From contig NZ_NEVN01000008.1 of NCBI RefSeq assembly GCF_002261475.1, positions 1 through 64,000 of the forward strand: a stretch of DNA of 64,000 bases. The letters run 5' to 3'. The DNA is from Bordetella genomosp. 5. Lineage in GTDB: Bacteria; Pseudomonadota; Gammaproteobacteria; Burkholderiales; Burkholderiaceae_B. Every line of letters begins with the position of its first letter. The stretch's first letter is position 1. Under the pieces are notes generated by a model. It had not been told where the DNA came from. It did not search any database and saw nothing but the letters and a program-made list of their open reading frames with translations. Shown here one piece after another: positions 41,095 to 63,425 of this stretch. Both the position numbers and the translations under genes were made by a program.

Positions 41095-44000
41095 ATGGCA
41101 AAGCGCGTCGCCGTCGTGGGCATGTCGTTCCGTTTTCCCAGCACCAACACCGCCGAATATTGGACGGATCTGCTGGCCGGCAAGGATCTGGTAACGGAAA
41201 TCGACCCCGGACGCTGGTCTCCCGACCGCTATTTCCACCCGTCCAAGCAAAATCCCGGCACCGCCTATACGCGCAGCGCGGGCACGCTCGGCGACATTTC
41301 CGGATTCGACGCCGATTTTTTCGGCATTTCCCCGCGTGAAGCCGCGGTCATGGATCCGCAGCAGCGCCTTTTGCTCGAGCTGTGCTGGGAAGCCATGGAA
41401 GACGCCGCCATCCCGCCTCAGCGTTTGCGCGGCAGCGATTGCGGCGTCTACATCGGGATCTCGACGGCCGACTACGCCTACCGCATGGCGCATGACCTGG
41501 ACCTGCTCGACAGCACGGTCGCCACCGGCAACACCAGCAGCATCGCGGCGAATCGTCTCTCGTATGTGTTCGACCTGCGCGGCCCCAGCATGGCGGTGGA
41601 TACCGCATGCTCTTCGGCGCTCGTTGCCTTCCATCAGGCGGTGCGCGCCATCGCCAGCGGCGAATGCACCCACGCGATCGCGGGTGGCGTGAGCCTGCAC
41701 CTGCACCCTTATGGTTTCATCACGTTCTCCAAGGCGTCGATGCTGTCGCCGCGCGGACGCTGCAGCGTGTTCGACGCGTCGGGCGACGGCTACGTGCGCT
41801 CGGAAGGCGGCGGGCTGTTCGTTCTGAAAGACTACGACCAGGCGCTGGCGGACGGCGATCCGATCATCGGCGTCGTGGCGGGCAGCGCGGTCAATACCGA
41901 CGGCCGCAAGTCGGGCCTGACCGTGCCCAGCGCGCAGGCGCAGGCGCAACTGCTGGAGCAGGCTTATGGCCGCGCCGGCATCGACCCCGCCGAGCTCGAC
42001 TACCTCGAAGCGCACGGCACCGGCACGCGCGTGGGCGACCCGATCGAGACCCGCGCCATCGGCATGGCGCTGGGCGCGCGCCGCCCGCAGGGCAAGCCGC
42101 TGCCGATCGGCTCGGTCAAGAGCAACCTGGGCCACCTCGAGGCCGCCTCCGGCGTGGCCGGGCTGGTCAAGGCCCTGCATGCGCTGCGCCATCGTGAAGT
42201 GCCCGCCACCATCGGCGTCCGGGAGATCAATCCCAACATCGATTGCAGCGGCTGGAACATCGACATCGTCACCCGCAATCTGCCGCTGCCGGCCGAAGGC
42301 ACGCTCACGATCGGCGTGAACTCGTTCGGCTTCGGCGGCGCCAACGCGCACGTCATTCTGCAAAGCGCGCCCGAACTGGCCGCCGCCAGCGTGCCGGCGC
42401 CGCTCGCGCCACCCGCGCGCGAGGTGCCCGTCTTCGTGAGCGGCCGGACCGAGGCCGCGCTGCAACAGGCCGCGCTCGACCTCGCGGCACGGTTGCGTGC
42501 GCAACCAGAGCGGCTGTACGACATTGCCTGGCAGAGCTGCCTGCGGCGCGACTGGCATGCGAGCCGCGCGCTCGTTTTCGGTCAGGATGCCGCGGCCGTG
42601 GCCCAGACCCTCGCGCAACACGCTGCGGGTCATGCGCCGCGCCACGCGCTGGCGCACGGCACCGCGCTGCCGGACGCCACGCGCGTCGTCTACGCCTACT
42701 CGGGCAACGGCTCGCAGTGGATGGGCATGGGACGCCGGTTGATGACCCATCCCGTCTTCGCCGAAGCGGTCGACGCCATCGATCGCCTGTTCGAACCCTT
42801 GGCCGGCTACCGGCTGGCCGACGAGCTGCGGCGCCAGGACGCGCCCAACCGTTACGACAGCACCGAGTACGCGCAGCCGGCCCTATTCGCATTGCAGGTC
42901 GGCATCACTCACCTGCTCGCCGAGCGCGGCCTGCAACCCGGTGCCGTGCTCGGTCACAGCGTGGGCGAAGTCGCCGCGGCGTGGGCCAGCGGCGCGCTGA
43001 CGCTGCAGGACGCGGTGCAGGTGATCTACCACCGCAGCCGCCTGCAGGGCACGACCCGAGGCGTGGGCGCGATGACGGCCGTGGGCTTGAGCGGCAACGC
43101 CGCCCAGGACCTGATCGACGCCGCCGGGCTCGGCCAGGAGGTCTGCGTGGCCGGCTACAACAGCGTGCGGGGCGCAACGCTGGCCGGCACCCCGCGGGCC
43201 TTGAGCGTGATCGAAGGACAACTCAAGGCCCAGCGCCAGTTCCAGCGCCGGCTGGATCTGGACTACGCCTTTCACAGCACGGCCATGGACAGCATCGAGG
43301 CGGGCCTGCGCGAGTCGCTCGCGGGCCTCGCGCCCGAGCAGGTGGCGGTGCCCATGATTTCCACCGTGACCGGCGCGCCCTTGATCGGCACCGAACTGGA
43401 CGCGCAGTACTGGTGGGACAACGTGCGCCAGCCCGTGCGTTTCGAACAGGCGCTCGAGACCCTGACCGCGCAGGGCGATGTGCTCTATCTTGAAATCGGC
43501 CCGCATCCCGTGCTGCGCGGCTACCTCAACGACGCGTTGAAGGCGGCCGGCCTGACGGGCCGCGCATTGACCACGGCAGCCCGCGGTGAAGACGATCCGG
43601 CGCGCATCCTGGACGCCGCCGCCCAGGCCATCGTGGCGGGTGCGACGCCGCGCTGGGATACGCTGCTGCCGCGCGCCGGCCGGCCGCTGACCCTGCCCGC
43701 CTACCCCTGGCAGCGCGAACGCCACTGGCACGACGAGACGCCGGAGAGCGCCAGCCTGCTCGGCCGCCCGGATCTGCATCCCCTGTTGGGCTACGCCCTG
43801 CCTCAGCACCCCTGGACCTGGGAGAACCGGCTGGACGCCGAGCGCCATGCGCCGCTGGCCGACCACGTGGTGGGCGAGGCCGTGGTGTTCCCCGGCACCG
43901 GCTTCGCCGAGCTGGCCCTGGGCGCGGCCGCGCAGCACGCCCCCGACGCCGCCTTGCTCGACATCGAAGACCTCGAGATCCGTGTGCCGCTGTTGCTCGA

Positions 44001-47000
44001 CGGCGAGCAGGCGCAACGCGTGCGCACCGAGCTGGACACTGCCGATGCCAGCGTGCGCATCAGCGCCCGCGCGACCGGCAGCGATGCCGCGTGGACACTG
44101 CATGCCACCGCGCGCGTACTGACCGGCTCGGCACCGGCGCATCTCGATCAGGGCGCCCCCGCGGCGCCTGCCCGCGCGGCGGATTTCGACCACGCCCTGC
44201 ACGCGCGGCTGACCCGCGCCGCCGGCCTGGCCTATGGGCCGCATTTCAGCATGGTGCGCCAGGGCTGGCTGACCGATGCCGACACCGTGCTGGCCGAACT
44301 GGACGCGCCCGCGGCGGACGCGCTGTGGCAGGATCTGCTGCTGCATCCGGGCTCGCTCGACTGCACCTTCCAGCTCATCATCATGTTGATGCGCGAGCAT
44401 GCCCATCGCTACGCGGGCATGACCTTCGTGCCCGCGCGCATGGGACGCATCACGGTGCGCCGCGGCGCGGGTCCGGTGCGCTGGGTGCGCGCGCGGCTGC
44501 TGCGCCGCAATCCCCACTCGCTCACCGCCGAATTCGACCTGTACGACGCCGAGGGGCAATCGGTGGCCGCGGTCCGGCAGGCGCGCTTTCGCAGCGTGCG
44601 GCTCGGTGGACAGGGCACGCCCGCGCTCCATTACCTGGCCGACGCAGCCGTGGCCGCGCCGCATCCGCGTGCCAGCACGCCGGCACAGCCCTTCCCTCAA
44701 GCCCTGCTCCAGCGACTCGGCCAGACCTCCGTGCCGGCGCGCGAGCGCCAGTATCACTACGCCGACGAGGTCGAGCCGCTGCTCTACGCGCTGAGCGAAC
44801 AGTTCGGCCTGGAAGCATTGCAGACGCTGGCCGACGACGAGGGTCTGCTGCCCGCGGCCACCGTGACGCGCCTGCGCGAGCAAGCCCGCGACATCGCGCC
44901 GCTCTTCGACCATCTGCTGCGCCAGGGCACGGCCGCCGGCTGGCTGGCGCCCACCCCGGCGGGTTGGCGCTTCGTGACGGACCATACCGATGAGTCCAGC
45001 CCCACGGCGGCCGACATCTGGAATCTGCTCTCGCACGACTATCCGGACGAGTTCGCCCTGATGCAGGCCTGCTCGCGCCTCGGCATGGCCTTGCCGGCGC
45101 TGCTGCGCGGCGACGGCGCGGCCGCCGAGCCGCAGGGCGCATTCACGCCGGGACAGGCGCAAGCCGCCATCCTCGGGCGCGCCGGACAGTTGCACTGGCA
45201 ACAGACGGTGGCCGACGCCATCGCCGCCGCGCAGGATGCCCTGCCGGCCGGCGCGCGCCTACGCGTGCTGGAGATCGGCGGCTGCGGCCCCGAGCTGGGC
45301 GCCGCCTGCTGCGCGGCCCTCGACTTCGATCGCGCCGACTACCGTTATCTGGCGCTGCATCCCGACGCGCAGGATGCCGCCGCCAGCGCGCTCGAAGACT
45401 GGCCCGCCGCCCGCATCCAGCCCGCCGGAGAGGCAGTGCAGGACGGCGCGTTCGATCTGGTGATCGTGCATACGGCCTGCCACGCGCTGTCGCAGAGCCA
45501 GGCCGCCTTTGCCGCGGGCCGCGCCGCCCTCGCGCCGCACGGCCTGCTCGCGCTGACCGGCAATCACCCAGACGGCTGGCTCGATCTGGTGTTCGGCGCC
45601 CGCGCCGACTGGTGGGCGGAGTCGGCCGAAGGCGGCGCCGTCCCGGCCTTGCAGCCCGCCGCCCATTGGCGTGGCGCGCTCGAGGCCGCCGGCCTGACGC
45701 CGCTCGCGCAGGAAGAAGACGACGCCGTTCAGGCGGGCCCTTATCTGCTGTGGGCACAGGCCCAGACGGCCAACGCCAACGCCAACGCCGACGGCGCCGA
45801 CGGCGCGGAGCCCGCCTCCGCCGCGCGCGCCTGGCTCATCCTGGCCGACGATGCGTCGGCCGACTGGGCCGAGCAGTTGCAGGCGCGCCTGCACCAACGC
45901 GGGGACCAGGCCATCCTGGTGCGCGATGTCGCCGCGGACGCGCCGGCCGTGGCCGCCAGCCTCGCCATGGCGCTGGACACCGCGGGCAGCCTGCACGGCG
46001 TGATCCATGCCGACGGCCTGTCGCCGGCGGACGACGGCCCGGAGACGCGGCTCGCGCGCCAGACGCGCCGCGTCACGCTGGCCGCCCTGGTCGCGCAGGC
46101 CTGCGAAGCGCTGCCCGCACCGATAGACTTCATTCTGCTCACGCGTAACGCCGCCCAGCACCTGACCGGCGCCGGGTCGCAGGAAGACGACGCCGCGCTG
46201 TGGGGCTTCGGCCGCACGCTGCAGAACGAGGCCGCCAACTACGCCGTGCGCCAGATCGACCTGCCGGCACACGAGGCCGGCACCGACTGGGAGGCCCTGC
46301 TGCGCGAGCTGCTCACCCCCGATGAAGAAACCGAGATCGTGCTGAGCGCGGCCGGCGCCCGCCACGCGGTGCGGCTGCGGCAGGTCGAGGCACCGCGCGG
46401 TCCGGCGCGGGATCAGGGCGACACCGTGGTCCGCCTGGGGCTGTCGTTCCCGGGTCAGTTGCGCAACCTGCGCTGGGAACGCGTGGCCGCCCCGGCGCCC
46501 GCCGCCAACCAGATCGAAGTCGATGTCCAGGCGACCGGGCTGAACTTCCGCGATGTGATGTATGCCCTGGGCATGCTGTCCGACGAAGCCATCGAACAGG
46601 GTTTTGCCGGGCCCACACTCGGCCTCGAATTCGCCGGCGTCGTGCGCCGGACCGGCAGCGAGGTGCACGACTACAAGCCGGGCGACCGCGTGGTGGGGTT
46701 CGGTCCGGCGAGCTTCAGCAATCGCGTGCTGACCACCGGCGACGCCATCGCCCTCATTCCGCGCAACCTGAGCGCCGCCGCCGCGGCCACCATTCCGAGC
46801 ACCTTTTTCACGGTGTATTACGCGCTGAACCATCTGGCGCGGCTCGAGGCGGGCGAGCGCATCCTGATCCACGGCGCGGCGGGCGGCGTGGGTATCGCGG
46901 CCATTCAGTATGCGCAGGCGCTGGGCGCCGAGGTGCATGCCACGGCCGGCACCCCCGAGAAGCGCGACTTCCTGCGCCTCCTGGGCGTGAAGCATATCTA

Positions 47001-48687
47001 CGACTCGCGCGCGCTGAGCTATGCCGACGAGATCCTCGCGGCCACCGGCGGCGACGGCGTGGACGTGGTGCTCAACTCCCTGGCGGGCGAAGCGATCAAC
47101 CGCAACTTCGCGGTGCTCAAGCCGTTCGGCCGCTTCCTCGAACTGGGCAAGCGCGACTTCTACGAAAACACCCGGATCGGCCTGCGCCCGTTCCGCAACA
47201 ACATCAGCTACTTCGGCATCGATGCCGATCAGCTCATGCGCGAGCGCCCGGCCCTGACGCGCCGGCTGTTTGGCGAGATGATGGCGCTCTTCGAGACCGG
47301 CACGCTGCGGCCGCTGCCCTATCGCGGCTTCGAGGCACGCGATCTGGTCGACGCCTTCCGCCATATGCAGCAGGCGCGCCAGATCGGCAAGATCGTCGTG
47401 ACCTACGACGGCGGCCTGCCCGCGGGCGTCACGGCGAACGACGCGGCGCCGGCCTGGCAAGCCAGCTCGCAAGCCAGCTACCTCGTGACCGGCGGACTGC
47501 GTGGCTTCGGTCTGCGCACCGCGCAATGGCTGGCCGAGCGTGGCGCCCGCCACCTCATCCTGTGCAGCCGTAGCGGTCCGGCCGACGCCGAGGCCACCGA
47601 CGCGCTGGCCGCCCTGCGGGCGCAAGGCGTGAACGTGCTGGCGCGCGCGTGCGACGTGACCGACGCCACGGCGCTTGCCGCGCTGCTCGACGAGGCGCGC
47701 GCCACGATGCCCGCGCTGCGTGGCGTGGTGCACGCGGCCATGGTGCTGGACGATGGCCTCGCGCGCAGCCTCGATGCGAGCCGCATCCAGCGCGTGCTCG
47801 CGCCCAAGATGTTGGGTGCCCTGCACCTCGACCGTCTCACGCGCGACGATCCGCTCGACCTGTTCGTCTGCTTCTCGTCGGCCACGACACAATTCGGCAA
47901 CCCGGGCCAGGGCAACTACGTCGCCGCCAATGCCTGGCTGGAGGCCTTCGTGCGCCAGCGCCGCGCCCGGGGCCAGGCCGCCACGGCGGTGTGCTGGGGC
48001 GCCATCGACGATGCGGGCTATCTGGCCCGCAACACGCAGATCAAGGATGCGCTCGCGAGCCGCATGGGCGGCAGGCCGCTGCCGGCCACGCTGGCCCTGC
48101 ACGCGCTGGGCGACATGCTGGCCCACGAAGCGAGCGGGCTGGGCGTGCTCGAGCTCGACTGGCAGCCGCTGGCACGCTTCCTGCCCGCCGCCGGGCACCC
48201 GCGCTTCGCCGAGCTGGCGCGTGCGGGTGGCGGCGCCGACGGCGAGGCGGGCGACGACATCGCGCACCTGCTCGACACGCTGGACGACGAGTCCCTCCAC
48301 GAGCGCGTGGTCGACATGGTCAAGCGCGAAGTGGGCGAAATCCTGCGCGTGGCGCCTGAGCGCATCGATGCGCTCCGGTCGGTCTACGACATGGGGCTCG
48401 ACTCCCTGATGGGCGTGGAACTGGTCGTGGCGCTGGAACAGCGCTTCGGCCAGCGCCTGCCGGTGATGGCCCTGTCGGAGAGCGCCACCATCGACAAGCT
48501 GGCCCGCCGCCTGGTGGTGCTGCTGCGCGGCGAGGAGACGGCCGCCGCCCAGGCGCCGGCCGTGTCGAGCCAGATCGAGCAGGTCGTGGCGCAACACGCC
48601 GTGGACGTGCCCCTGGAGGCCATCGCCGACTTCGCCACCCACCTCGAGCAGCGCGCCGACGCCGGCGCGCCGCGCATGATCCGCTGA
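41095..48687 (+). CDS. Highly reducing type I polyketide/fatty acid synthase, capsule-associated
   Basis: A 2,530-residue single-module synthase. KS (about 1-430): C172, H307, H347. AT (about 555-860): GHS622VGE and YAFH727, a malonyl-type pattern. DH (about 890-1180): H924 in HVVGEAVVFPG and D1089. A region (about 1250-1570) has a degenerate SAM motif, EIGGCGPEL at 1393. ER (about 1775-2095) has GAAGGVG at 1927-1933. KR (about 2125-2375) has TGGLRGFG, S2261/2262 and Y2275. ACP has GLDS2437L, followed by a 50-residue tail. There is no thioesterase. All reducing domains look intact, so it should make a saturated chain by iteration. It resembles Burkholderia WcbR and Sinorhizobium RkpA (from memory). 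The oxoamine synthase 12 bp downstream is the likely release enzyme. Confidence 0.93.
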   Translation: MAKRVAVVGMSFRFPSTNTAEYWTDLLAGKDLVTEIDPGRWSPDRYFHPSKQNPGTAYTRSAGTLGDISGFDADFFGISPREAAVMDPQQRLLLELCWEAMEDAAIPPQRLRGSDCGVYIGISTADYAYRMAHDLDLLDSTVATGNTSSIAANRLSYVFDLRGPSMAVDTACSSALVAFHQAVRAIASGECTHAIAGGVSLHLHPYGFITFSKASMLSPRGRCSVFDASGDGYVRSEGGGLFVLKDYDQALADGDPIIGVVAGSAVNTDGRKSGLTVPSAQAQAQLLEQAYGRAGIDPAELDYLEAHGTGTRVGDPIETRAIGMALGARRPQGKPLPIGSVKSNLGHLEAASGVAGLVKALHALRHREVPATIGVREINPNIDCSGWNIDIVTRNLPLPAEGTLTIGVNSFGFGGANAHVILQSAPELAAASVPAPLAPPAREVPVFVSGRTEAALQQAALDLAARLRAQPERLYDIAWQSCLRRDWHASRALVFGQDAAAVAQTLAQHAAGHAPRHALAHGTALPDATRVVYAYSGNGSQWMGMGRRLMTHPVFAEAVDAIDRLFEPLAGYRLADELRRQDAPNRYDSTEYAQPALFALQVGITHLLAERGLQPGAVLGHSVGEVAAAWASGALTLQDAVQVIYHRSRLQGTTRGVGAMTAVGLSGNAAQDLIDAAGLGQEVCVAGYNSVRGATLAGTPRALSVIEGQLKAQRQFQRRLDLDYAFHSTAMDSIEAGLRESLAGLAPEQVAVPMISTVTGAPLIGTELDAQYWWDNVRQPVRFEQALETLTAQGDVLYLEIGPHPVLRGYLNDALKAAGLTGRALTTAARGEDDPARILDAAAQAIVAGATPRWDTLLPRAGRPLTLPAYPWQRERHWHDETPESASLLGRPDLHPLLGYALPQHPWTWENRLDAERHAPLADHVVGEAVVFPGTGFAELALGAAAQHAPDAALLDIEDLEIRVPLLLDGEQAQRVRTELDTADASVRISARATGSDAAWTLHATARVLTGSAPAHLDQGAPAAPARAADFDHALHARLTRAAGLAYGPHFSMVRQGWLTDADTVLAELDAPAADALWQDLLLHPGSLDCTFQLIIMLMREHAHRYAGMTFVPARMGRITVRRGAGPVRWVRARLLRRNPHSLTAEFDLYDAEGQSVAAVRQARFRSVRLGGQGTPALHYLADAAVAAPHPRASTPAQPFPQALLQRLGQTSVPARERQYHYADEVEPLLYALSEQFGLEALQTLADDEGLLPAATVTRLREQARDIAPLFDHLLRQGTAAGWLAPTPAGWRFVTDHTDESSPTAADIWNLLSHDYPDEFALMQACSRLGMALPALLRGDGAAAEPQGAFTPGQAQAAILGRAGQLHWQQTVADAIAAAQDALPAGARLRVLEIGGCGPELGAACCAALDFDRADYRYLALHPDAQDAAASALEDWPAARIQPAGEAVQDGAFDLVIVHTACHALSQSQAAFAAGRAALAPHGLLALTGNHPDGWLDLVFGARADWWAESAEGGAVPALQPAAHWRGALEAAGLTPLAQEEDDAVQAGPYLLWAQAQTANANANADGADGAEPASAARAWLILADDASADWAEQLQARLHQRGDQAILVRDVAADAPAVAASLAMALDTAGSLHGVIHADGLSPADDGPETRLARQTRRVTLAALVAQACEALPAPIDFILLTRNAAQHLTGAGSQEDDAALWGFGRTLQNEAANYAVRQIDLPAHEAGTDWEALLRELLTPDEETEIVLSAAGARHAVRLRQVEAPRGPARDQGDTVVRLGLSFPGQLRNLRWERVAAPAPAANQIEVDVQATGLNFRDVMYALGMLSDEAIEQGFAGPTLGLEFAGVVRRTGSEVHDYKPGDRVVGFGPASFSNRVLTTGDAIALIPRNLSAAAAATIPSTFFTVYYALNHLARLEAGERILIHGAAGGVGIAAIQYAQALGAEVHATAGTPEKRDFLRLLGVKHIYDSRALSYADEILAATGGDGVDVVLNSLAGEAINRNFAVLKPFGRFLELGKRDFYENTRIGLRPFRNNISYFGIDADQLMRERPALTRRLFGEMMALFETGTLRPLPYRGFEARDLVDAFRHMQQARQIGKIVVTYDGGLPAGVTANDAAPAWQASSQASYLVTGGLRGFGLRTAQWLAERGARHLILCSRSGPADAEATDALAALRAQGVNVLARACDVTDATALAALLDEARATMPALRGVVHAAMVLDDGLARSLDASRIQRVLAPKMLGALHLDRLTRDDPLDLFVCFSSATTQFGNPGQGNYVAANAWLEAFVRQRRARGQAATAVCWGAIDDAGYLARNTQIKDALASRMGGRPLPATLALHALGDMLAHEASGLGVLELDWQPLARFLPAAGHPRFAELARAGGGADGEAGDDIAHLLDTLDDESLHERVVDMVKREVGEILRVAPERIDALRSVYDMGLDSLMGVELVVALEQRFGQRLPVMALSESATIDKLARRLVVLLRGEETAAAQAPAVSSQIEQVVAQHAVDVPLEAIADFATHLEQRADAGAPRMIR

Positions 48688-48699
48688 GGACACGGACCC

Positions 48700-50046
48700 A
48701 TGGCTACACTCAAACCCGCCAAGGCGCCCGGCGACAGCCTGAAAGATAAGCTGATCCGTCATGCCCTGGAACGGCGGCTGAACCGCGCATCGGCCCCGGT
48801 GCCCGCCGTCGGCGCCGCCGCGCCGGCCAGCGCGCCGGTGCCCGACGCCCATTGCCGCTTCGACCAGCATCCGGCCTATCAGCAGTTGCGCATCATCAAC
48901 GACGGCGCCGCGCGGCTGGGCGTGGCCAATCCGTTTTTCAAGGTGCACGAGGGCTCGGCCGCCGCGAGCACGCGGATCGGTGGCGAGCGCTATCTGAACT
49001 TCTCGAGCTACAACTATCTGGGCTTATCGGGCGACCCCGTCGTCGCACAGGCGGCCAAAGACGCCATCGACCGCTACGGCACGTCGGTATCGGCCAGCCG
49101 CCTCGTCTCGGGCGAACGGCCGATCCACCGCGCGCTGGAACAGGCGCTGGCCGAGCTCTACGACGTGGACGACGCCATCACCTTCGTCAGCGGCCACGCG
49201 ACCAATGTGTCGACCATCGGCCACCTGTTCGGTCCGAACGATCTGATCCTGCACGATGAACTGATCCACAACAGCGTGCTGCAGGGCATTCAGCTCGCGG
49301 GCGCGCGCCGCCTGTCCTTCCCGCACAACGACGCCGCCGCGCTCGATGAGTTGCTCACCCGCGAGCGGCGCGGCTTCGAACGCGTGCTGATCGTGCTGGA
49401 AGGCATCTACAGCATGGACGGCGACTACCCGGATCTGCCGGCCTTCGTCGAGCTCAAGCGGCGCCATCAGTGCTTCCTGATGGTGGACGAAGCCCATTCG
49501 CTGGGCGTCATGGGCGCGCGCGGTCACGGCATCCGCGAGCATTTCGGTCTGGCCGGCGACGACGTCGATATCTGGATGGGCACGCTGAGCAAGACGCTGG
49601 CGGGCTGCGGCGGTTACATCGCCGGCGAGACGGCGCTGGTGGAGCACCTCAAGTTTCTCGCGCCGGGCTTTCTCTACAGCGTGGGCATGCCGCCGCCGGT
49701 GGCCGGCGCGTCGCTGGCCGCCCTGCAACGCCTGCACGAGGTTCCCGACCGGGTCCGCACGCTGCAACAGCGCGGCCAGGCATTTCTCGCCCAGGCCCGC
49801 GCCGAGGGCATCGACACCGGCACCAGCACGGGCCTGGCGGTGATCCCCGCGATCATCGGCAACTCGATCAAGGCGGCCCGACTCTCTGCCGCCCTGTTCG
49901 ACCGCGGGCTCAATGTGCAGCCGATCCTGCACCCTGCCGTGCCCGAGCAGTCCGCGCGCCTGCGCTTCTTCATCTGCAGCGAGCACAGCGAAGCCGACAT
50001 CCGCGACGCGGTGCAGCTGACGGCGCAGGAAATCCGGCGGCTCTGA
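48700..50046 (+). CDS. Alpha-oxoamine synthase (KAPA synthase/serine palmitoyltransferase-like)
   Basis: A 448-residue fold-type I PLP enzyme. Asp263 and His266 (DEAHS) and the Schiff-base Lys298 (TLSKTLAG) are the PLP residues; SSYNYLGLSGDP is the family's substrate-entry block. The N-terminal extension of about 75 residues is rich in Ala/Pro, possibly for docking to the synthase ACP. Family members condense an acyl thioester with an amino acid and lose CO2, giving an alpha-amino ketone. No bio genes are near, and placement directly after the PKS argues for acyl-ACP use rather than biotin synthesis. Known counterparts in memory are WcbT and RkpG. It ends 7 bp before the convergent operon. 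Confidence 0.9.
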   Translation: MATLKPAKAPGDSLKDKLIRHALERRLNRASAPVPAVGAAAPASAPVPDAHCRFDQHPAYQQLRIINDGAARLGVANPFFKVHEGSAAASTRIGGERYLNFSSYNYLGLSGDPVVAQAAKDAIDRYGTSVSASRLVSGERPIHRALEQALAELYDVDDAITFVSGHATNVSTIGHLFGPNDLILHDELIHNSVLQGIQLAGARRLSFPHNDAAALDELLTRERRGFERVLIVLEGIYSMDGDYPDLPAFVELKRRHQCFLMVDEAHSLGVMGARGHGIREHFGLAGDDVDIWMGTLSKTLAGCGGYIAGETALVEHLKFLAPGFLYSVGMPPPVAGASLAALQRLHEVPDRVRTLQQRGQAFLAQARAEGIDTGTSTGLAVIPAIIGNSIKAARLSAALFDRGLNVQPILHPAVPEQSARLRFFICSEHSEADIRDAVQLTAQEIRRL

Positions 50047-50053
50047 GCGGCGC

Positions 50054-51637
50054 TCAGGCCGCCACGCGGGCGCCGCCGCGGTACAGCCCGGCGGCGGCCA
50101 GAAAGGTCTGGGCGAGATCGTGCACGGCAAGCTCGCGCACGGCCCGCGCGCCTTGCGATCGCGCATTCCACACCAGGTAGTCGGTCAGGCCGTCGGGCTC
50201 GCCCAAGGCGCCGTAGACCTTTTCCATGATCGGCACGTGATCGCCGTACACGCAGAGGGTCGCGGGCCGGTCGAGCGAGCGCATGGTGTCGGCCAGGGTC
50301 TGGAACATGCGGTCGGCATTGCGCAGATGGCGCACATAGGCGCCGAGCTCGTCGCAGCCGGCCGGCAACTCGCCCCGGATCAACTCGGCCACTTCCGCCG
50401 GGTCCAGGGACTCCCAGTGCAGCGGACCGTGGTTCTCCATCGTGATGACGTGCACATAGAGCGGCTGATCGCCCGCCTCGCGCAGCAGCGCCGCCACGTG
50501 TTCCGCCACCGGCACGTCGCCCACGTAGGCGCCCACGCGATCCGCCGGATCGAAGGCCGCGATGTCGGTGAAGGCGTCGAAGCCCAGGCGGGGCAAGACC
50601 CGGTCGCGCCGATAGAAGCCGCCGTGATAGGGATGCACGCACACCGTGCGGTAGCCCCATTGCCGCAGATGCGAGGCCAGCGTGGGCACGGGCCGCGCAC
50701 ACAGCCGGCGATACGGGTTATAGCGATGCACGCCCAGCTCCTCGGCCGACACGCCGGCAAGAAAGCCGAATTCCGAACGCACCGTGTTCGCGCCCCAGGC
50801 GGCCACGCGCAGCCGCCCGCTGGACTCGGCCTGCGCGCGCAGGCCGTCCCAGTGCGCCAGGACCTCCGGGCGCACCATGGGATAGCGGCTGCGCGGATCG
50901 AAGAAGGACTCGCTCTGCACCGACACCAGATGCGGCAGCGCCGCGGCGGGCCTGGGCCGCAGGTTGACGAACGGAAAGCCGGCGAGCGGCTTGGGCGGCT
51001 CGCGACGCTCGGCACGCCCATACGTCCAGAGCAAGGCGGCCATGCCGAGACGGCGCAGGTCGCTGCGGGCGCGGAACGACGCGCGCGGCAGCCGCCGGGC
51101 GGCCAGCAATGCGAGCGCGGCGCCCGCCGCCAGGAAGGCGGCCACGGCCCCGAGCCAGTCGGTCCAGGCCGCGCCGTAGGCGGGCTCGAAGCGCAGGGCC
51201 ACCCACACACTCGCCGCGTAGACGGCGATCGGCACCACCACGCCGGCCCAGCCCAGGAACGGCAGATAGAGGCGCGGGTGACGCAGGGCGTCGATGAAAT
51301 ACTCGAAGTCCGCGGTGACGAAGGGTTCGCGCAGCGAGCGATACTTCGCGTTGCTCACGCCCACCAGGATGCCCTGCACCACCACCAGATTGGCGATGGC
51401 GAACCAGGGCCGCCGGAACAGCGCCAGCTCGAGCGCGAACAGCACCGTCCACCCGCCCGCGTGCAGGCACAGCGCGGACACCGGGCGCCGCCACGGCGCG
51501 CGGGGTGCGGGCCGCAGCGCCCCTTCGATCAGAAAACTCAACACGAGCCCGCAGGCCCAGGGCAACGCCAGGGTGGCATGCGACTGCCACCACGCGCTGA
51601 CCGGCCACAGGCCGGCGAATTGCCAAAACTCAGTCAC
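50054..51637 (-). CDS. Membrane sulfatase-fold transferase (LTA-synthase/phosphoethanolamine-transferase-like)
   Basis: A 527-residue protein with about five N-terminal helices (1-190) and a sulfatase/alkaline-phosphatase-fold domain (about 230-520). Metal/nucleophile marks are VQSESFFD, the Thr in GANTVRSEFGF and YGDHVP. HPYHGGFYRRD and MENHGPLHW are further family blocks. Relatives transfer phosphoglycerol or phosphoethanolamine from phospholipids, or hydrolyse sulfate esters, on the periplasmic side. It is the last gene of the capsule operon and overlaps the reductase stop by 8 bp. It may modify the capsule or its lipid; WcbQ/RkpI are candidate counterparts (memory, unsure). No hydroxyl acceptor can be read. 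Confidence 0.8.
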   Translation of the reverse strand: MTEFWQFAGLWPVSAWWQSHATLALPWACGLVLSFLIEGALRPAPRAPWRRPVSALCLHAGGWTVLFALELALFRRPWFAIANLVVVQGILVGVSNAKYRSLREPFVTADFEYFIDALRHPRLYLPFLGWAGVVVPIAVYAASVWVALRFEPAYGAAWTDWLGAVAAFLAAGAALALLAARRLPRASFRARSDLRRLGMAALLWTYGRAERREPPKPLAGFPFVNLRPRPAAALPHLVSVQSESFFDPRSRYPMVRPEVLAHWDGLRAQAESSGRLRVAAWGANTVRSEFGFLAGVSAEELGVHRYNPYRRLCARPVPTLASHLRQWGYRTVCVHPYHGGFYRRDRVLPRLGFDAFTDIAAFDPADRVGAYVGDVPVAEHVAALLREAGDQPLYVHVITMENHGPLHWESLDPAEVAELIRGELPAGCDELGAYVRHLRNADRMFQTLADTMRSLDRPATLCVYGDHVPIMEKVYGALGEPDGLTDYLVWNARSQGARAVRELAVHDLAQTFLAAAGLYRGGARVAA

Positions 51638-52393
51638 GATAGCCCAGCCTGCGCAGAATGAAGCCCGACACGGCGGGATGGATGCCGGCCAGCAGCCAGC
51701 ACCCGAAGTTCAGGGGAAAAGGAAAGCTGATGCGGGCACGGTTGGCCGCCAGCCCGCGGCGGATGCGTTGCGCCGCGCGGGCCGGCTGCCACAGAAACGG
51801 CTTGGGTCCGGGCATCGCCTCGCACATCGGCGATTCGACGTAACCCGGCATCACTACATTGACGCGCACGCCGTAGCCGGCGAGGCCGTCGCGCAGCGCC
51901 TCGCCATAGGCCTTGAGCGCGGCCTTGCTCGCGCTGTAGCTCGGCGTCTCGGGCAAGCCGCGCCACGCGGCCAGCGAGCTGATGAGCGCGATCTGCCCGT
52001 CGCGGCGTTCCCGCATGGCGGGCAGCACCCCTTGCACGGTCGCCATGGCCGCCCGCACGTTCACATCGATGAGCATGCGCGACTCCTCGCGATCCTCGCC
52101 CATGCCGTTGGCGCGGGCGTGGATGTTGACGCCTGCATTCACGATCACCAGGTCCGGCACACCGGTCGCGCACACGGCGGCGAGCCACGCGTCGAGCGCG
52201 GCCAGGTCGCGCACGTCGAGCACCTGGGTGCTGACGCGCGCGCCGCGCGCCTGGCATTGCGTGGCCAGCTCCGCCAGGCGGTCCTCGCGGCGGCCCTGCA
52301 AAATCAGCGTGGTGGCGGGCGCGGCATAGGCCAGCGCGAGCGCGGCGCCGATGCCGCCCGTGGCACCGGTGATCAGGATCGAGCCCGGGCGTT

Positions 52394-52397
<4 letters not shown>
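51630..52397 (-). CDS. Short-chain dehydrogenase/reductase, capsule-linked
   Basis: A 255-residue SDR. The cofactor loop TGATGGIG (10-17), NAG in the fourth strand, catalytic Ser (ISSLAAW) and YSASK are all present. The C-terminus has a hydrophobic stretch (NFGCWLLAGIHPAVSGFIL) that could hold the protein at the membrane. 3-ketosphinganine reductases and RkpH/WcbP belong to this general type, so reduction of the amino ketone made by the oxoamine synthase is a reasoned guess. Its ATG overlaps the kpsS stop by ATGA, fixing the start. Confidence 0.85.

Positions 52398-53614
<1,217 letters not shown>

Positions 53615-55680: not shown

Positions 55681-55684
<4 letters not shown>
53618..55684 (-). 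CDS. kpsC: Capsule polysaccharide Kdo-transferase KpsC, two-domain
   Basis: A 688-residue protein made of two homologous halves (about 1-330 and 340-688). Each half repeats [60 protein letters not shown] and [18 protein letters not shown]. This internal duplication is the normal KpsC architecture; the halves make alternating beta-2,4 and beta-2,7 Kdo linkages. The start overlaps the stop of the epimerase gene by ATGA. It acts with KpsS in the cytoplasm at the membrane. Confidence 0.93.
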
Positions 55685-56718
<1,034 letters not shown>

Positions 56719-56733: not shown

Positions 56734-58023
56734 TTACAGACGGATGTCGGCCGCGTCGGCCGGCAGCACGTACTTGAGGTCGTACAGGATGTGCTTGGCC
56801 TTGCCGAGCTTGCGGATCTCGGCGGCGCCCATCTTGACGAACTCGTCGTGCGACACGGCCAGGATCACGGCGTCGTATTTGCCTGCCTCGGGCGATTCGA
56901 TCGGCGTGATGCCGTACTCGTGCTCGGCCTCTTCCTTCTCGACCCACGGGTCGTACACGTCGACAGCGACGTTGTACTCACCGAGTTCCTTCACGATGTC
57001 GACCACGCGCGTGTTGCGCAGGTCGGGGCAGTTTTCCTTGAAGGTCAGGCCCATTACCAGCACGCGGGCGCCTTCCACGTAGATGCGCTGCTTGGTCATG
57101 GCCTTGACCAGCTGCGACACCACATAGCCGCCCATCGAGTCGTTCAGGCGGCGGCCCGCGAGAATGATCTCGGGGTGGTAGCCGATGGCCTGCGCCTTGT
57201 GCGTGAGGTAGTACGGGTCCACGCCGATGCAGTGACCGCCCACCAGACCCGGACGGAACGGCAGGAAGTTCCACTTGGTGCCGGCCGCCTGCAGCACGGC
57301 TTCGGTGTCGATGCCCATCTTGTTGAAGATCAGGGCCAGCTCGTTGATCAGCGCGATGTTGACGTCGCGCTGGGTGTTCTCGATCACCTTGGCCGCTTCT
57401 GCCACGCGGATCGTCGGCGCCTTGTGCGTGCCGGCCACGATGATCTGCTTGTACAGCTGGTCGACCAGCTCGGCCACTTCGGCCGTCGAGCCCGAGGTCA
57501 CCTTCTTGATGGTGCTGACGCGGTGCGCCTTGTCGCCCGGATTGATGCGCTCGGGGCTGTAGCCGGCGTAGAAGTCTTCGTTGAACTTCAGGCCCGACAC
57601 GCGCTCGAGCACCGGCACGCAGTCTTCTTCGGTCGCGCCCGGGTACACGGTGGACTCGTAGATCACGATGTCGCCGCGCTTGAGCACGGCGCCGATGGTC
57701 TCGCTCGCCTTGACCAGCGGCGTCAGGTCGGGCTGGCGGTACTCGTCGATCGGCGTGGGCACCGTCACGATGAACACGTTGGCGCGGCCGAGGGTTTCCT
57801 TGTCGGTGGTGTAGCTCAGCTGTTTGGCGCTGGCCAGCTCGTCGTCATCCACCTCCAGCGTGTGGTCATGACCCTTGCGCAGCGCATCGACGCGGCGCTC
57901 GTTGATGTCGAAGCCGATAACCTCGCGCTTCTTGCCGAACTCGACGGCCAGGGGCAGGCCCACATAGCCCAGGCCGACGACGGCGAGCTTGATTTGGTCC
58001 AAGGATTTAAGCAATTGCGACAT
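56734..58023 (-). CDS. tviB: UDP-N-acetylhexosamine 6-dehydrogenase, TviB/WbpO type
   Basis: A 429-residue UDP-sugar dehydrogenase. The NAD motif is [10 protein letters not shown] (15-24). The catalytic Lys is near 212 ([16 protein letters not shown]) and catalytic Cys265 is in [24 protein letters not shown] is the UDP-HexNAc dehydrogenase form rather than UDP-glucose dehydrogenase. It oxidises UDP-GlcNAc or UDP-GalNAc twice to the uronic acid with NAD+. It lies 15 bp before the epimerase. Confidence 0.92.
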
Positions 58024-58044: not shown

Positions 58045-59139
58045 TCAGTTGGAGCCGACACGTTGGCCGACGATCAGGACCTGGACGATCGGAGTGATGA
58101 TCTTTTCCCACTCGTACATCGGCGCGTTGCTCACGTACACCACGTCTTCCGGCATCAGCTCGAACTGCTTGGCCAGGAACATCGACTCGGGGTTGCGCAT
58201 GTTCAGACGGAACACGGTCGGATGCGGCGCGGCGCCCGCATTGCGCCCATCGAGGCGGAACACGAACACGCCGGTCGCGTCGGCGGCGCGGTCATTCAGA
58301 CCGCCCGCCACACCCAGCGCGTCCAGCAGATTGGTCTGCTTGGAGGGCAGCTCGTGCAGGCCCGGCTTGGTCAGCGCGCCCATCGCCACGAAGCGCTTCA
58401 GATTGGGTTCGACCACCACCTCGGAACGCGGCTCGACGGCCACGTTGCGGCCATTGAGCAATTGCTGGTAGGGAATGCGTTTGACCTTCTTGCCGCTGCG
58501 GATCACCACGTCGGCCTGATACGGCGGCAGCGTGGAGCCGCCGGCCTGCGTGATGGCGTCCAGCGCGGTCAGCGGCCCCTTGTTGCCACCGAAGCGGCCC
58601 GGCCGGGGCACGGCGCCCGCCACCAGCACGGAGTTGGAGCGGTCGTCCGCCAGGTCCACCATGACCTGCGGCTGCACCGCGGCGCTGGCGCGCAGCGCGC
58701 CGCGCACCTGCTGCTCGATGGCTTCCAGCGACTTGCCCCGCACCTTCAGGCGGCCGACATAGGGCAGCGAAATCGAGCCGGAGGCATCGACGCGCACCGC
58801 CTCGAACACCGTGCCGCCATTGGCGAGCGGCGCGAACAGGCCACCTTCCATGCTGTCGGCCACCAGCACGCGCAGCACGTCGCCGGGCATGACGGTCATG
58901 TTGCCCACGTAGCCGTCGCTGGTCGCGCCTTCGGCGTCGGCGTCGTGCCGCACCAGCACATACGGTGCGATCGTGTCGGCCCGCACATCCACCACCTCGT
59001 AGGCGGGCTGGGCATCGCCCGACGGTTTGGCGCCATCCAGGATCGCGCCCTTCGTGGGCCCCGAGCCGGACAGCACGCCGCAGCCGGAAAGCGCCAGTAC
59101 GGCCAGCACCGATAGCAGTCGAAATAGGTTCTTATTCAT
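58045..59139 (-). CDS. Outer-membrane polysaccharide export lipoprotein, Wza-like
   Basis: A 364-residue lipoprotein with lipobox LALSGC20. A polysaccharide-export domain follows (MPGDVLRVLVAD…FEAVRVDASGSISLPYVGRLKVRG). SLBB-type repeats (VLVAGAVPRPGRF, FVAMGALTKPG) and a C-terminal segment EDVVYVSNAPMYEWEKIITPI, the amphipathic outer-membrane helix of Wza-like channels, complete it. It would form the outer-membrane export pore with KpsE and KpsMT below. The start was set at the lipoprotein signal peptide; a longer frame exists upstream without such features. Confidence 0.9.
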   Translation of the reverse strand: MNKNLFRLLSVLAVLALSGCGVLSGSGPTKGAILDGAKPSGDAQPAYEVVDVRADTIAPYVLVRHDADAEGATSDGYVGNMTVMPGDVLRVLVADSMEGGLFAPLANGGTVFEAVRVDASGSISLPYVGRLKVRGKSLEAIEQQVRGALRASAAVQPQVMVDLADDRSNSVLVAGAVPRPGRFGGNKGPLTALDAITQAGGSTLPPYQADVVIRSGKKVKRIPYQQLLNGRNVAVEPRSEVVVEPNLKRFVAMGALTKPGLHELPSKQTNLLDALGVAGGLNDRAADATGVFVFRLDGRNAGAAPHPTVFRLNMRNPESMFLAKQFELMPEDVVYVSNAPMYEWEKIITPIVQVLIVGQRVGSN

Positions 59140-59149
59140 GCCCGTCTTG

Positions 59150-60076
59150 TTACTCCGGTAAAGAAAAGGAATGGCGTGCGGCGCGAGCCGGACCCGAGCG
59201 GCGCAGTTGCGCGCGCACGCGGTCCAGCATGTGTTCGGCCAGCACAGCCTCGAAACGTGGGGAATAGTGATTGACGTCGGCCCCGTCCTTGTCGAGCAAG
59301 GCGGCTTCGTCCCAGCCCTGGGCAATCTCCAGCGGATCCATGACCTCGACGCCGGGCACGCCCTCGGCCGCGGTCTTGACCCGCTCGACGTGACGGCTGC
59401 GCGACACCATGCGGCGGCCGTCCGGGCGCGCCACGTCGACGTGCGTCACCGCGAGCAGCGGCTTGTCGACCACGCGGGCCAGATAGTGCAGATCGGCGCG
59501 CACATCGGCTTCGGTGTCCTCGGCGCACACCGCGCCGCGCAGCACGCGCTCGCCCGCCGGCTTGAGCGCATCGTCGATCACGTGCTCGAACACCGGCCGC
59601 ACCGCGTCGTAGGCCTCGGGCAGCACCCGGCCGTTGCGGACCAGCGAGCGCCACCAGGCCATGCCTTCGTCACCCAGTTCACGCACCAGATGCCGCACGA
59701 CGAGATTCTTCTGCAGGAACACGCCGTCGACGCTCACGCTGCGCTCGGCGGCCGCCTCCACCACCAGCAGGTCCGCGGTGCGCAGCTCGTCGGCCAGCGC
59801 CGGCGTCACGATGGGCACGCGCGCGGCCGGAAACAGGAACGGCAGCAGTTGACGGTCCAGCCCGGTGCGCTCGGCCAGCCAGCGCACACGCTGCGCGGCC
59901 TCGCGGGTGCTGTGGATGTAGCCGCTGACGCCGGAGGTGTGCAACCGCGCACTCCCGCTTTCCTGCAGCAGCTTCACCGGACGGTGCACGCGGCAGCTGC
60001 CGAGCACGAACAGGTTCAGGGCGGCGGAATCGGGGGTGGACGCGGTATGCAGGGGCGCCTGGACGGCTTGGATCAT
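59150..60076 (-). CDS. SGNH-hydrolase-like protein of the capsule operon
   Basis: A 308-residue protein of uncertain function. An N-terminal LFVLGSCR (Ser27) resembles the nucleophile block of SGNH/GSCFA- or WcbI-like proteins. Near the C-terminus D267-V-N-H270-YSP matches the D-x-x-H catalytic pair of SGNH enzymes. There is no signal peptide or membrane helix, so it is cytoplasmic. Members of this superfamily include O-acetyltransferases and esterases acting on glycans, and O-acetylation is a feature of Vi-type capsule. GAGGAAA precedes the ATG. It lies between the glycosyltransferase and the export lipoprotein. Confidence 0.65.
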   Translation of the reverse strand: MIQAVQAPLHTASTPDSAALNLFVLGSCRVHRPVKLLQESGSARLHTSGVSGYIHSTREAAQRVRWLAERTGLDRQLLPFLFPAARVPIVTPALADELRTADLLVVEAAAERSVSVDGVFLQKNLVVRHLVRELGDEGMAWWRSLVRNGRVLPEAYDAVRPVFEHVIDDALKPAGERVLRGAVCAEDTEADVRADLHYLARVVDKPLLAVTHVDVARPDGRRMVSRSRHVERVKTAAEGVPGVEVMDPLEIAQGWDEAALLDKDGADVNHYSPRFEAVLAEHMLDRVRAQLRRSGPARAARHSFSLPE

Positions 60077-60087
60077 CGGCGGTTTCC

Positions 60088-62172
60088 TCAAGGATTCTGG
60101 TAGCAACGCACGGTGGACGCGATCATCTGCGACAGCGAGAAGCGCGCCGTGGCCCACTGGCGGGCGTGTTCGGCGATGCGGGCGTCGGCCTGGCACATCT
60201 CATGGATGCGCGTGAGGGCCTGCGCCACGTCGTCGGCCGTCACGGTGTCCGCGGGCAGCGTGAGACCGGTCACGCCTTCCTGCACGGCCTCGCCGGCGCC
60301 GCCCGCGAGCGTGGTCACGACCGGCACGCCCGAGAACTGCGCCTCGATCAGCACATTGGGCAGCCCCTCGAAACGGGACAGCAGCAGAAAGGCGTCGAAC
60401 TGCGTGAGCCAGTAGCCCACGCGCTTGGACAGACCCGTGAAGAGGATGCGGTCGGCCATGCCGATGCGATGCGCGAACTCCTTGACCGGCTCGAGCAGCG
60501 GACCGCCGCCCACCATGATGAAGCGCGCGTGCGGGTGCGTGGCGGCGAACTTCTGCGCCGCCTCGACCCACAGGAACGGCCGCTTGTTGTCATCCACGCG
60601 CATCACCGTGCCCACCGTGAACGTCTGCTCGGGGGTGCGCGACGCGAACTCGGCCATCAGGCCCAGCGCCTTGTCGTCGCTGGCCGGCTTGAGCGGCGCC
60701 AGGCCGTTGTAGACCACCGGAATCCGGCGCGCATCGACCTTGAGCCAGTCGGCATAGCGGTGCGCGGCGAATTGGGAATTGGAGCTCAACACCACGCCGC
60801 GCATCTTCAGCAGCTCCGAGTAGATGGTGTCGTACTCGACGCGGTAGCGGTCGGGCCGGTCCACCGGCGGCATGGTGCGCACCGACAGCACGATGCGGGG
60901 CACGCCCGCGAGCAGCGCGGCCAGTGCGGTCGCGAAGATCGAACCGTCCTGCCAGATGTGCGCGACCTGCGGCACCGACGAGCGCATCACGTCCGTGAGC
61001 TTGGTGGTGCCCTCGATGATCTGCTTGGGCAGAAAGCGCAGATATTCGCGGTACGGGGCCAGCAGCGACGAATACTCGCAGCCGCCCCACGCCTGCATGT
61101 CCGCGTAGACCGACACGGGGATACCGTTCTCGCGCAGCGTCGCCGCGAAGAAGTCGGCGCCCTCGCGGCTGCGCAGCGACCGGCACACCACCTGCACCGG
61201 GCCCACGACGCCATAGCCGGCCACCGACTGTCCCGACTGGATCGCGGTCTGCAGCGCCACCGCGGTGTTGACGAACTGCCGTTCCGCGCCGCCGGCGCCG
61301 AGCGAGCCGTTGATCATGAGGACGGTGCCCACGAACGATTCCGGGCCCGCGTCGTACTCGGCGTTGCGGCGCTTGCCGATCTCCTGGAACAGCCGCTCCA
61401 GCACCAGAATGCTGACCGGCACGTCGCGGCCTTCGCCCTCCACGCCCAACTGGCGCAAGGCGGCGATGTCGTTGTCGAGTTCGCCCAGCCGGCGCGCGAC
61501 CTTGCGCCCGGCATCGCCCAGCGTCGCCGCACCGGTGCGCAGCATGGCGCGGGCACGCCAGAGCGCGCCGCGGCGCACCAGCGATTGGGCCCAGCCCACG
61601 TAGCCGTTCTCGAATGCGGGATGCTCCGCGACCAGCCGCGCGAAGCAACGGTCGGCCTCGTCCGAATTACCGATCTCGTCCCAGCTCTTGGCTTCGAGCA
61701 GGATGTCACGCGCGCTGGTGCTGCCGCCCGAGAAGTACAGCTCGAGCTCGCCGCGTGCCGCCTCCACGCCCAGCTGGCGCTTCACGCCGCGCAGCATCAG
61801 GATGAAGGCATCCGAGGAATCCGGAAAGCGCTGGTGGATGCTGCGCCACACGACCAGGCTTTCGTCGGGCTTGTGCGCCGCCTCCAGGCTGCGCGCCACC
61901 AGCACCTGGAACAGCTCCGTTTCGGGATAGTGGCGCACATATTCGAGCAGTTTGGGCACGGCGCCCTGCGGGTCGCCGGCGGCCACATGCTGTTCGAGCA
62001 GCTTGCGCGCCTCGAGCAGCGTGTCGCGCGAAGGCTCCTCGTTCTGCGGCTCGGCGGTCGCGGCCGCGGTCAACATATCGACGACAGCCAGCGTGCTCGG
62101 GCGGCCGCCGGCCGGGCCGTCGCCGGGCTCGGCACGACGCGGCTTGCGAAGACGTGAGAGAAAGGAAAACAT
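60088..62172 (-). CDS. TPR-glycosyltransferase, VipC/TviE-like
   Basis: A 694-residue protein. An N-terminal helical TPR-like region (about 45-235) precedes a GT-B glycosyltransferase domain (about 280-690). Marks are MINGSLGAGGAERQ at the start of the first Rossmann half and E602-GLPNVLI-E610, the EX7E retaining motif of GT4. VGTVMRVDDNKRP and FIMVGGGPL are GT4 blocks. It resembles Vi-polymer glycosyltransferase TviE and Bordetella VipC (from memory). It probably polymerises the uronic-acid chain. Being the only glycosyltransferase in view apart from KpsCS, it may make a homopolymer. Confidence 0.85.
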   Translation of the reverse strand: MFSFLSRLRKPRRAEPGDGPAGGRPSTLAVVDMLTAAATAEPQNEEPSRDTLLEARKLLEQHVAAGDPQGAVPKLLEYVRHYPETELFQVLVARSLEAAHKPDESLVVWRSIHQRFPDSSDAFILMLRGVKRQLGVEAARGELELYFSGGSTSARDILLEAKSWDEIGNSDEADRCFARLVAEHPAFENGYVGWAQSLVRRGALWRARAMLRTGAATLGDAGRKVARRLGELDNDIAALRQLGVEGEGRDVPVSILVLERLFQEIGKRRNAEYDAGPESFVGTVLMINGSLGAGGAERQFVNTAVALQTAIQSGQSVAGYGVVGPVQVVCRSLRSREGADFFAATLRENGIPVSVYADMQAWGGCEYSSLLAPYREYLRFLPKQIIEGTTKLTDVMRSSVPQVAHIWQDGSIFATALAALLAGVPRIVLSVRTMPPVDRPDRYRVEYDTIYSELLKMRGVVLSSNSQFAAHRYADWLKVDARRIPVVYNGLAPLKPASDDKALGLMAEFASRTPEQTFTVGTVMRVDDNKRPFLWVEAAQKFAATHPHARFIMVGGGPLLEPVKEFAHRIGMADRILFTGLSKRVGYWLTQFDAFLLLSRFEGLPNVLIEAQFSGVPVVTTLAGGAGEAVQEGVTGLTLPADTVTADDVAQALTRIHEMCQADARIAEHARQWATARFSLSQMIASTVRCYQNP

Positions 62173-63394: not shown

Positions 63395-63425
63395 AAGCAA
63401 TCGTCGTCTTGGTTCAAAAAGGGGT

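Follow-up and report, generated by a model that had tools for sequence, protein, structure and literature searches.

Genes at the locus

The window analysed here, a stretch of 64,000 nucleotides of Bordetella genomosp. 5 (contig NZ_NEVN01000008.1; genome of 5.2 Mb in 13 contigs), carries a type I polyketide synthase (PKS) gene and a gene for a pyridoxal phosphate (PLP)-dependent alpha-oxoamine synthase (AOS) on the plus strand, and a capsule operon which converges on them from the minus strand, the stop codons being 7 bp apart. Read in its own direction, this operon encodes a KpsM-type protein, a KpsT-type protein, a KpsE-like protein, a tetratricopeptide repeat (TPR) protein with a glycosyltransferase part, a product without Pfam match, a KpsD/Wza-like protein, a UDP-sugar dehydrogenase, an epimerase, KpsC, KpsS, a short-chain dehydrogenase/reductase (SDR) and, as the last gene, a membrane protein (50054-51637). 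The KpsT-type gene spans the window end and the KpsM-type gene lies past it (L089), so that KpsS, a dual-module KpsC and the KpsD/E/M/T genes are all present, KpsE being named from its transmembrane (TM) pattern and place. The PKS, AOS and SDR genes are thus located inside or beside an ABC-exporter capsule locus, as in the rkp-1/wcb capsule lipid module, of which we take RkpG/WcbT to be the AOS and RkpH/WcbP the SDR. As argued below, the locus very probably makes a sphingolipid, and we propose that this lipid may serve as an anchor of the capsule.

A preliminary description of this DNA had placed the SDR in the convergent operon, and it indeed sits directly downstream of kpsS and kpsC; the minus-strand gene between AOS and SDR had been left out of its gene list. 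The nearest named relative in our scan, Bordetella genomosp. 1 (L009; AOS 87%, PKS 81% identity), has the same gene order through KpsD plus the open reading frame (ORF) behind KpsD.

The PKS is encoded by a single ORF in which Pfam recognises ketosynthase (KS), acyltransferase (AT), dehydratase (DH; PS-DH), enoylreductase (ER; ADH_zinc), ketoreductase (KR) and acyl carrier protein (ACP; PP-binding) domains, and none of its 15 Pfam matches is to a thioesterase family. This bears out the earlier description of a complete reducing single module without thioesterase. Across the window enzyme and 69 related full-length PKSs (n = 70), the active-site motifs of all six domains are conserved, most positions in at least 95% of sequences, and the DH His-x-x-Gly is present in 69/70. 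As a thioesterase is missing, release of the chain would fall to the AOS. Among solved whole enzymes the closest is mycocerosic acid synthase, a reducing PKS which acts iteratively, and the window PKS is probably iterative as well; its AT is presumably malonyl-type, by a motif rule that we assume to apply. At another locus (L100, genome G319) AOS and PKS matches lie in one open stretch of 2622 amino acids (aa), which suggests a fused PKS-AOS protein.

The methyltransferase (MT) that the preliminary description had counted among the PKS domains does not stand as a functional unit. No Pfam methyltransferase family matches the PKS, and the S-adenosylmethionine (SAM) motif E-x-G-x-G-x-G occurs in this region in 0/70 PKSs. 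There is a fold: a profile built from the window sequence together with 28 of the 69 relatives, 29 in all, identifies aa 1185-1560 as a C-methyltransferase fold (CurJ match, E 7e-30), and the AlphaFold model of the region is confident (mean pLDDT 91). Aa 1185-1555 also form the least conserved of nine PKS regions, with 7% of columns at or above 95% versus 46% in KS and 54% in ER. The same profile weakly touches animal fatty acid synthase (FAS; E 0.017), in which a methyltransferase fold has lost its cofactor site; the methyltransferase of the fumonisin PKS is active. Since the SAM motif is absent from all 70 sequences, we read the region as a pseudo-MT and methylation is not to be assumed. In sequence, the middle of the PKS looks like a methyltransferase fold deprived of its cofactor site, and unbranched product chains are expected. 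An active methyltransferase was accordingly rejected, as the CurJ-type fold stands alone.

The AOS begins 12 bp past the PKS stop codon, as had been described, and belongs to PF00155. Its best matches in the PDB are serine palmitoyltransferases (SPTs; E 5e-65, chains 3a2b and 8guh), with BioF/Kbl-type enzymes next (2.5e-60). It matches 12 NCBIfam families, none of them above cut-off: bioF comes first (337 vs 426 bits), and all SPT cut-offs are missed (281 vs 640, 266 vs 500 and 210 vs 670). The His-, DEAH- and Lys-bearing active-site motifs, whose roles we presume from the family, are kept by the window enzyme and by 80 relatives. By homology (Pseudomonas loci, 67-70% identity) and by these conserved motifs, the enzyme is predicted to condense a long acyl thioester, most likely with L-serine. 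One genome, G162, has two AOS copies (C8:203248-204462 and C9:15351-16544), which share 51% and 49% identity with the window AOS; the one examined lies near KpsT/E/M-type genes.

The fourth gene and the co-inheritance of the module

Five segments of the protein encoded at the end of the operon are hydrophobic, and it contains a PF00884 domain. A phmmer search with the window protein finds GacH (E 3e-13). When the window copy was aligned with 22 of 32 full-length copies from related loci, the profile of these 23 matched GacH at 7e-26, LtaP at 8e-17 and LtaS at 3.5e-9. E243, T285, R344, H403, D466 and H467 are invariant in 23/23 sequences, and the same residues are kept in two distant homologues from another class of the phylum (G178, G293). 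The LtaS/GacH signature, that is, PF00884 with a metal-binding Glu, a nucleophilic Thr and an Asp-His pair, is present, the roles of these residues being assumed by us. Judged by these features, the gene encodes a GacH/LtaS-type phosphoglycerol transferase (hereafter, the transferase). Phosphatidylglycerol is the donor of glycerol phosphate for this enzyme class, whose catalytic domains normally act outside the cytoplasmic membrane. GacH, LtaS and LtaP share family and catalytic residues with the window protein; their targets are wall carbohydrate or lipoteichoic acid of Gram-positives, that of GacH being a polysaccharide (a streptococcal carbohydrate), whereas a sphingoid base is the proposed target of the window enzyme. 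We consider it reasonably probable that sphinganine is its substrate.

AOS relatives were collected as the best 80 of 242 related loci, and their enzymes are 64-87% identical to the window's (67-70% in Pseudomonas). A same-strand PKS match lies upstream of the AOS in 78/80 of these loci, and the other two sit on contigs of 5,291 and 3,517 bases; the pairing is more than chance. Fifty-seven of the 80 loci are at least 20 kb long, and within their flanks a Kps-type gene is found in 44/57, KpsS or KpsC in 40/57. Wherever SDR and transferase are both present they are adjacent and on the same strand (31/31 loci), and in 29 of these 31 the SDR abuts KpsS. Within the sequence available, L063 and L065 have a transferase without SDR and L049 the reverse. 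In Pseudomonas loci such as L048, L056, L061 and L075, the transferase-SDR-KpsS block lies between two KpsC-like ORFs.

Co-inheritance was followed in a family set of 151 genomes from 43 genera (E thresholds: AOS 1e-100, KpsS 1e-30, transferase 1e-20, SDR 1e-60). The AOS was found in 37 genomes and the SDR in the identical 37. The transferase was found in 36, namely 34 of the 37 AOS-positive genomes, G092 and, as a 179-residue open frame, G088; KpsS was also found in 36, 29 of them AOS-positive and 7 others. Fisher values against AOS (SDR 4e-36, transferase 6e-28, KpsS 2e-17) are inflated by kinship among the genomes. At least five genera (g1, g2, g6, g27, g30) mix AOS-positive and AOS-negative members, and the SDR tracks the AOS in all of them; the two genes are at most 6 kb apart in 11 of the 37 genomes, 8-641 kb apart in 23 and on separate contigs in 3. 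The type of KpsS matters too: with a KpsS at least 47% identical to the window's, the transferase is present in 27/27 genomes and the AOS in 26/27, versus 0/9 and 3/9 with a KpsS of 32-38% identity, the split between 47% and 38% having been set after the list was inspected.

Genome G092, of the same genus and 4.0 Mb in size, keeps KpsC, KpsS and the transferase (L096, 8952-15081) and has no AOS at E<=1e-100. Its SDR match covers 75 residues only, and its transferase differs at one residue invariant in the 23 copies. The pattern resembles gene decay once the lipid module had been lost.

A proposed sphinganine-based capsule anchor and its alternatives

Statements from the literature in this section rest on passages of the papers cited. 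In Pseudomonas fluorescens MYb115, the PKS SgaA and the AOS SgaB are both required for C24, C26 and C28 sphinganines; SgaB condenses L-serine with acyl-CoA surrogates, L-Ser being virtually exclusive over Ala and Gly, and the SDR SgaC is proposed as the reductase (PMC12134224). Free sphinganines were detected in MYb115 cells, and lipids heavier by 154 Da are most likely phosphoglycerol-sphingolipids, for which the passages name no enzyme of the phosphoglycerol step (PMC12134224). Against the Pseudomonas locus L075, the published sgaA primers show 0/22 mismatches at the PKS start and 1/23 at its end, and L075 is therefore a close stand-in for MYb115; on its opposite strand, genes for a KpsC-like protein, the transferase, SDR, KpsS and KpsC follow the AOS. 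The sphinganine-analogue chemistry foreseen in the preliminary description was thus right in kind and wrong in its methyltransferase function. It is highly probable at the window locus, where PKS and AOS stand together with an SDR nearby as in Sga (Pseudomonas loci: AOS 67-70%, PKS about 50-52% identical), and it is not new, being in print for a homologue (PMC12134224). On the other hand, the authors, who count 6,101 homologous clusters, dominantly in Burkholderia, regard the Sga products as host-active secondary metabolites (Peters et al. 2025, PMC12134224), whereas the window genes adjoin a complete capsule operon that includes a phosphoglycerol transferase gene. Searches of the main text of that paper for the terms 'capsul', 'polysaccharide' and 'sulfatase' returned nothing.

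We propose the following model. The PKS would build a long saturated acyl chain on its own ACP, and the AOS would free it by decarboxylative condensation, most likely with L-serine, giving 3-ketodihydrosphinganine, which the SDR is predicted to reduce to sphinganine. The transferase, lying beside this putative reductase, is a natural candidate for the enzyme behind the +154 Da lipid; it would move phosphoglycerol from phosphatidylglycerol to sphinganine. The resulting glycerophospho-sphinganine would resemble lyso-phosphatidylglycerol in its head group and single chain, and it might be both the dedicated acceptor for the capsule linker (built by KpsS/KpsC where these are present) and the anchor that the KpsMT exporter recognises. 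The model starts from the observed gene content, conservation and co-inheritance, to which it adds the predicted reductase role, the candidate phosphoglycerol enzyme and the supposed anchor role. For the pathway as a whole, from PKS to capsule anchor, we would put the chances of being right and wrong at about equal, and our confidence in the anchor role taken separately is just as evenly divided. The anchor idea is plausible, and it is strengthened by the phosphoglycerol transferase and by the co-occurrence across genomes. Modification of the capsule, the other role that the preliminary description had allowed the lipid, is a rival to it.

Known systems share parts of this arrangement. The rkp-1 region of Sinorhizobium (rkpABCDEFGHIJ, with rkpU upstream; PMC7902896) and wcbR of Burkholderia likewise place a large PKS/FAS gene in capsule-required loci (in rkp-1, rkpU, A, G, H, I and J; PMC4881576, PMC7902896, PMC3908369). 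The rkp-1 products are reviewed as making 'a specific lipid carrier' for capsule secretion and rkp-1 mutants are capsule-deficient (PMC4881576), but the capsule lipid is not identified in the passages of these three papers. In Porphyromonas gingivalis, a sphingolipid-null mutant that lacks SPT has less K-antigen capsule and the authors, who also cite a lyso-phosphatidylglycerol motif, speculate that surface polysaccharide is held by sphingolipid anchors; that system differs in phylum and involves an ordinary SPT and dihydroceramides, the passages naming no PKS or transferase (PMC5126122). The fungal fumonisin and sphingofungin pathways use a reducing PKS, release by an AOS and then a ketoreductase (PMC12134224); in contrast to the window, they make secreted toxins and have no capsule context, and the window MT looks dead. 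A sphingolipid capsule anchor as such has thus already been speculated on, for Porphyromonas, and what is new is the proposed capsule-anchor role of this PKS pathway. Among the matches listed from the open-licence literature, we found none, in the passages given, which links a capsule anchor with this AOS or with sphinganine made by a PKS, nor any that brings together the PKS pathway, the transferase and Kps/rkp loci.

A number of observations weigh against the model. Group 2-type KpsS/KpsC/KpsMTED capsules (E. coli and others) resemble the window's in their KpsS, KpsC and exporter genes and, to our knowledge, need no PKS, AOS or SDR. They differ in their anchor, which is phosphatidylglycerol, and for ABC-dependent capsules it is given as phosphatidylglycerol plus 3-deoxy-D-manno-oct-2-ulosonic acid (Kdo) (PMC9597891, PMC11041684), with Vi as 'the sole known outlier' (PMC9597891). 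Sphingolipid loss in P. gingivalis may act on the capsule indirectly, as the authors themselves note for part of the effect (PMC5126122), and the published primer for the end of sgaB matched L079 alone, with 4/21 mismatches. Within the available flank, 13/57 of the loci of at least 20 kb have no Kps-type gene. Three AOS-positive genomes lack the transferase, exactly those with a KpsS of 32-38% identity, a class defined, as said, after the fact. Moreover, transferase and KpsS are often neighbours and the genomes are related, so that the association may in part be due to common descent or joint transfer. On the scale of the phylum (398 genomes, our own included), the AOS was found in 19 and the transferase in just 13 of these 19, while 20 AOS-negative genomes match the transferase, 12 of them at 27-29% identity. 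When the AOS is at least 55% identical to the window's (n = 13, the window excluded), the transferase is present in 10, and one of the remaining three genomes is 71% complete; the link between AOS and transferase is thus strong in near relatives and looser at a distance.

Topology and partner specificity raise further difficulties for the model. A catalytic domain outside the membrane, set against cytoplasmic KpsS/KpsC, would mean that a flip step may be needed, and because GacH acts on a polysaccharide the transferase may do likewise. The loop charges of the transferase, which by the positive-inside rule would favour a cytoplasmic catalytic domain, do not decide its topology, since a control paralogue (L109), its own topology being assumed, shows a similar if weaker bias. 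Finally, 8/37 AOS-positive genomes have no KpsS match at E<=1e-30, which means that KpsS cannot follow as the next step in every case, and its role as obligatory lipid partner was rejected. Stretches of 40 kb were examined in three of these genomes. In G077 and G118, KpsD/M/T/E-type genes come directly after SDR and transferase, 23-24 kb from the AOS, and in G097 they stand beside the AOS, labels which in all three rest on 25-37% identity to the window's genes; neither KpsS nor KpsC was found in these stretches. Exporter genes without KpsS/KpsC suggest that the lipid module tracks ABC-exported capsules and not strictly the Kdo linker.

The most serious alternative is that PKS, AOS and SDR make free membrane or secreted sphinganines and phosphoglycerol-sphingolipids, with the capsule genes as mere neighbours and the capsule on ordinary phosphatidylglycerol. 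The view of the Sga products as host-active secondary metabolites, the free sphinganines in cells (both PMC12134224) and the 13 loci without a Kps-type gene would fit it. It does not account easily for SDR and transferase adjoining KpsS in 29/31 loci, for a KpsS type that tracks the transferase (27/27 vs 0/9), for the capsule deficiency of rkp-1 mutants (PMC4881576), or for the exporter-type genes which accompany SDR and transferase in two of the three KpsS-less genomes and the AOS in the third. We consider it unlikely, though far from negligible. A different division of labour, in which sphinganine is the anchor and the PF00884 enzyme, unrelated to the lipid, adds glycerol phosphate to the capsule glycan, seems to us improbable.

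That division of labour draws on the closest solved relative, GacH, being a polysaccharide enzyme and on the normally extracytoplasmic catalytic domain of the class, yet the transferase adjoins the SDR in every one of the 31 loci with both, and phosphoglycerol-sphingolipids are reported where a homologous PKS and AOS occur (PMC12134224). One might also suppose that the AOS is simply the cell's biotin enzyme BioF and its linkage to the PKS coincidental, since the genome holds no other AOS-family gene at E<=1e-10 despite a bioB (G000:C9:194316-195230, L115) and bioF is the top NCBIfam match. As that match falls under its cut-off, the best PDB matches are SPTs, a PKS precedes the AOS in 78/80 loci and the homologue is an SPT by assay (PMC12134224), a BioF role is disfavoured and we hold it to be very improbable indeed.

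If the proposed glycerophospho-sphinganine anchor is taken further, many proteobacterial capsules, with and without KpsS/KpsC, might be anchored by this lipid rather than by phosphatidylglycerol, and the 'lipid carrier' of rkp-1, the wcbR/T genes of Burkholderia and the host-active sphingolipids of Pseudomonas would belong to one pathway. We put this generalisation forward tentatively, rating it a little short of an even chance. If true, it would identify the lipid anchor of a widespread class of surface capsules, give PKS-made bacterial sphingolipids a physiological reason and name the missing head-group enzyme, and the question of the rhizobial 'specific lipid carrier' would become a direct test by mass spectrometry.

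Feature coordinates and minor observations

Table 1. Features of the window around the PKS and the convergent capsule operon
Feature	Position	Strand	Basis
Probably iterative reducing type I PKS (RkpA/WcbR/SgaA-like), 2530 aa, no thioesterase	41095..48687	+	Pfam; iteration inferred
KS domain; DTACSS, HGTGT, SNLGH kept	41101..42354	+	Pfam, motif conservation
AT domain; GHSVG, YAFH	42688..43644	+	Pfam, motif conservation
DH domain	43777..44604	+	Pfam, motif conservation
Putative pseudo-methyltransferase, C-MT fold without SAM motif	44647..45774	+	Profile match to CurJ C-MT, motif scan, model
ER domain	46450..47403	+	Pfam ADH_zinc, NCBIfam, motif conservation
KR domain	47473..48009	+	Pfam, motif conservation
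ACP domain; GLDSLM	48319..48513	+	Pfam PP-binding, motif conservation
PLP alpha-oxoamine synthase (RkpG/WcbT/SgaB-like), predicted serine acyltransferase	48700..50046	+	Pfam PF00155, NCBIfam, PDB matches, motifs
Membrane phosphoglycerol-transferase-like protein, GacH/LtaS kin	50054..51637	-	PF00884, profile matches, invariant residues
SDR, predicted 3-ketodihydrosphinganine reductase (RkpH/WcbP/SgaC-like)	51630..52397	-	Pfam, NCBIfam; TGATGGIG and YSASK motifs
KpsS-type capsule linker (beta-Kdo) transferase	52394..53614	-	PF05159; NF050054 278 bits, under cut-off 600
KpsC-type dual capsule linker transferase	53618..~55684	-	PF05159, 2 stretches; start codon chosen by hand
NAD-dependent sugar epimerase (capsule sugar)	55681..56718	-	Domain search
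UDP-sugar dehydrogenase (capsule sugar)	56734..58023	-	Domain search
Polysaccharide export outer-membrane protein (KpsD/Wza-like)	58045..59325	-	Domain search
TPR plus glycosyltransferase	60088..62172	-	Domain search
KpsE-like inner-membrane exporter subunit	62213..63400	-	Two end TM helices, no Pfam match; label from pattern and place
KpsT-type ABC ATPase, cut by window end	63426..64000	-	Continues in L089, then KpsM-type gene

The capsule-operon ORF without Pfam match (59150-60196, minus strand) encodes 348 aa, and its counterpart in Bordetella genomosp. 1 is 88% identical over 272 residues. Ferritin, LysR and recG genes, recognised by Pfam, adjoin the capsule/SDR region both in our own genome (L089, 8230-12084) and in L102 (9582-13450). 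L105 shows a ferritin gene, and L101 has ORFs of similar size, known by size alone. The recurrence of these neighbours suggests a shared chromosomal site.

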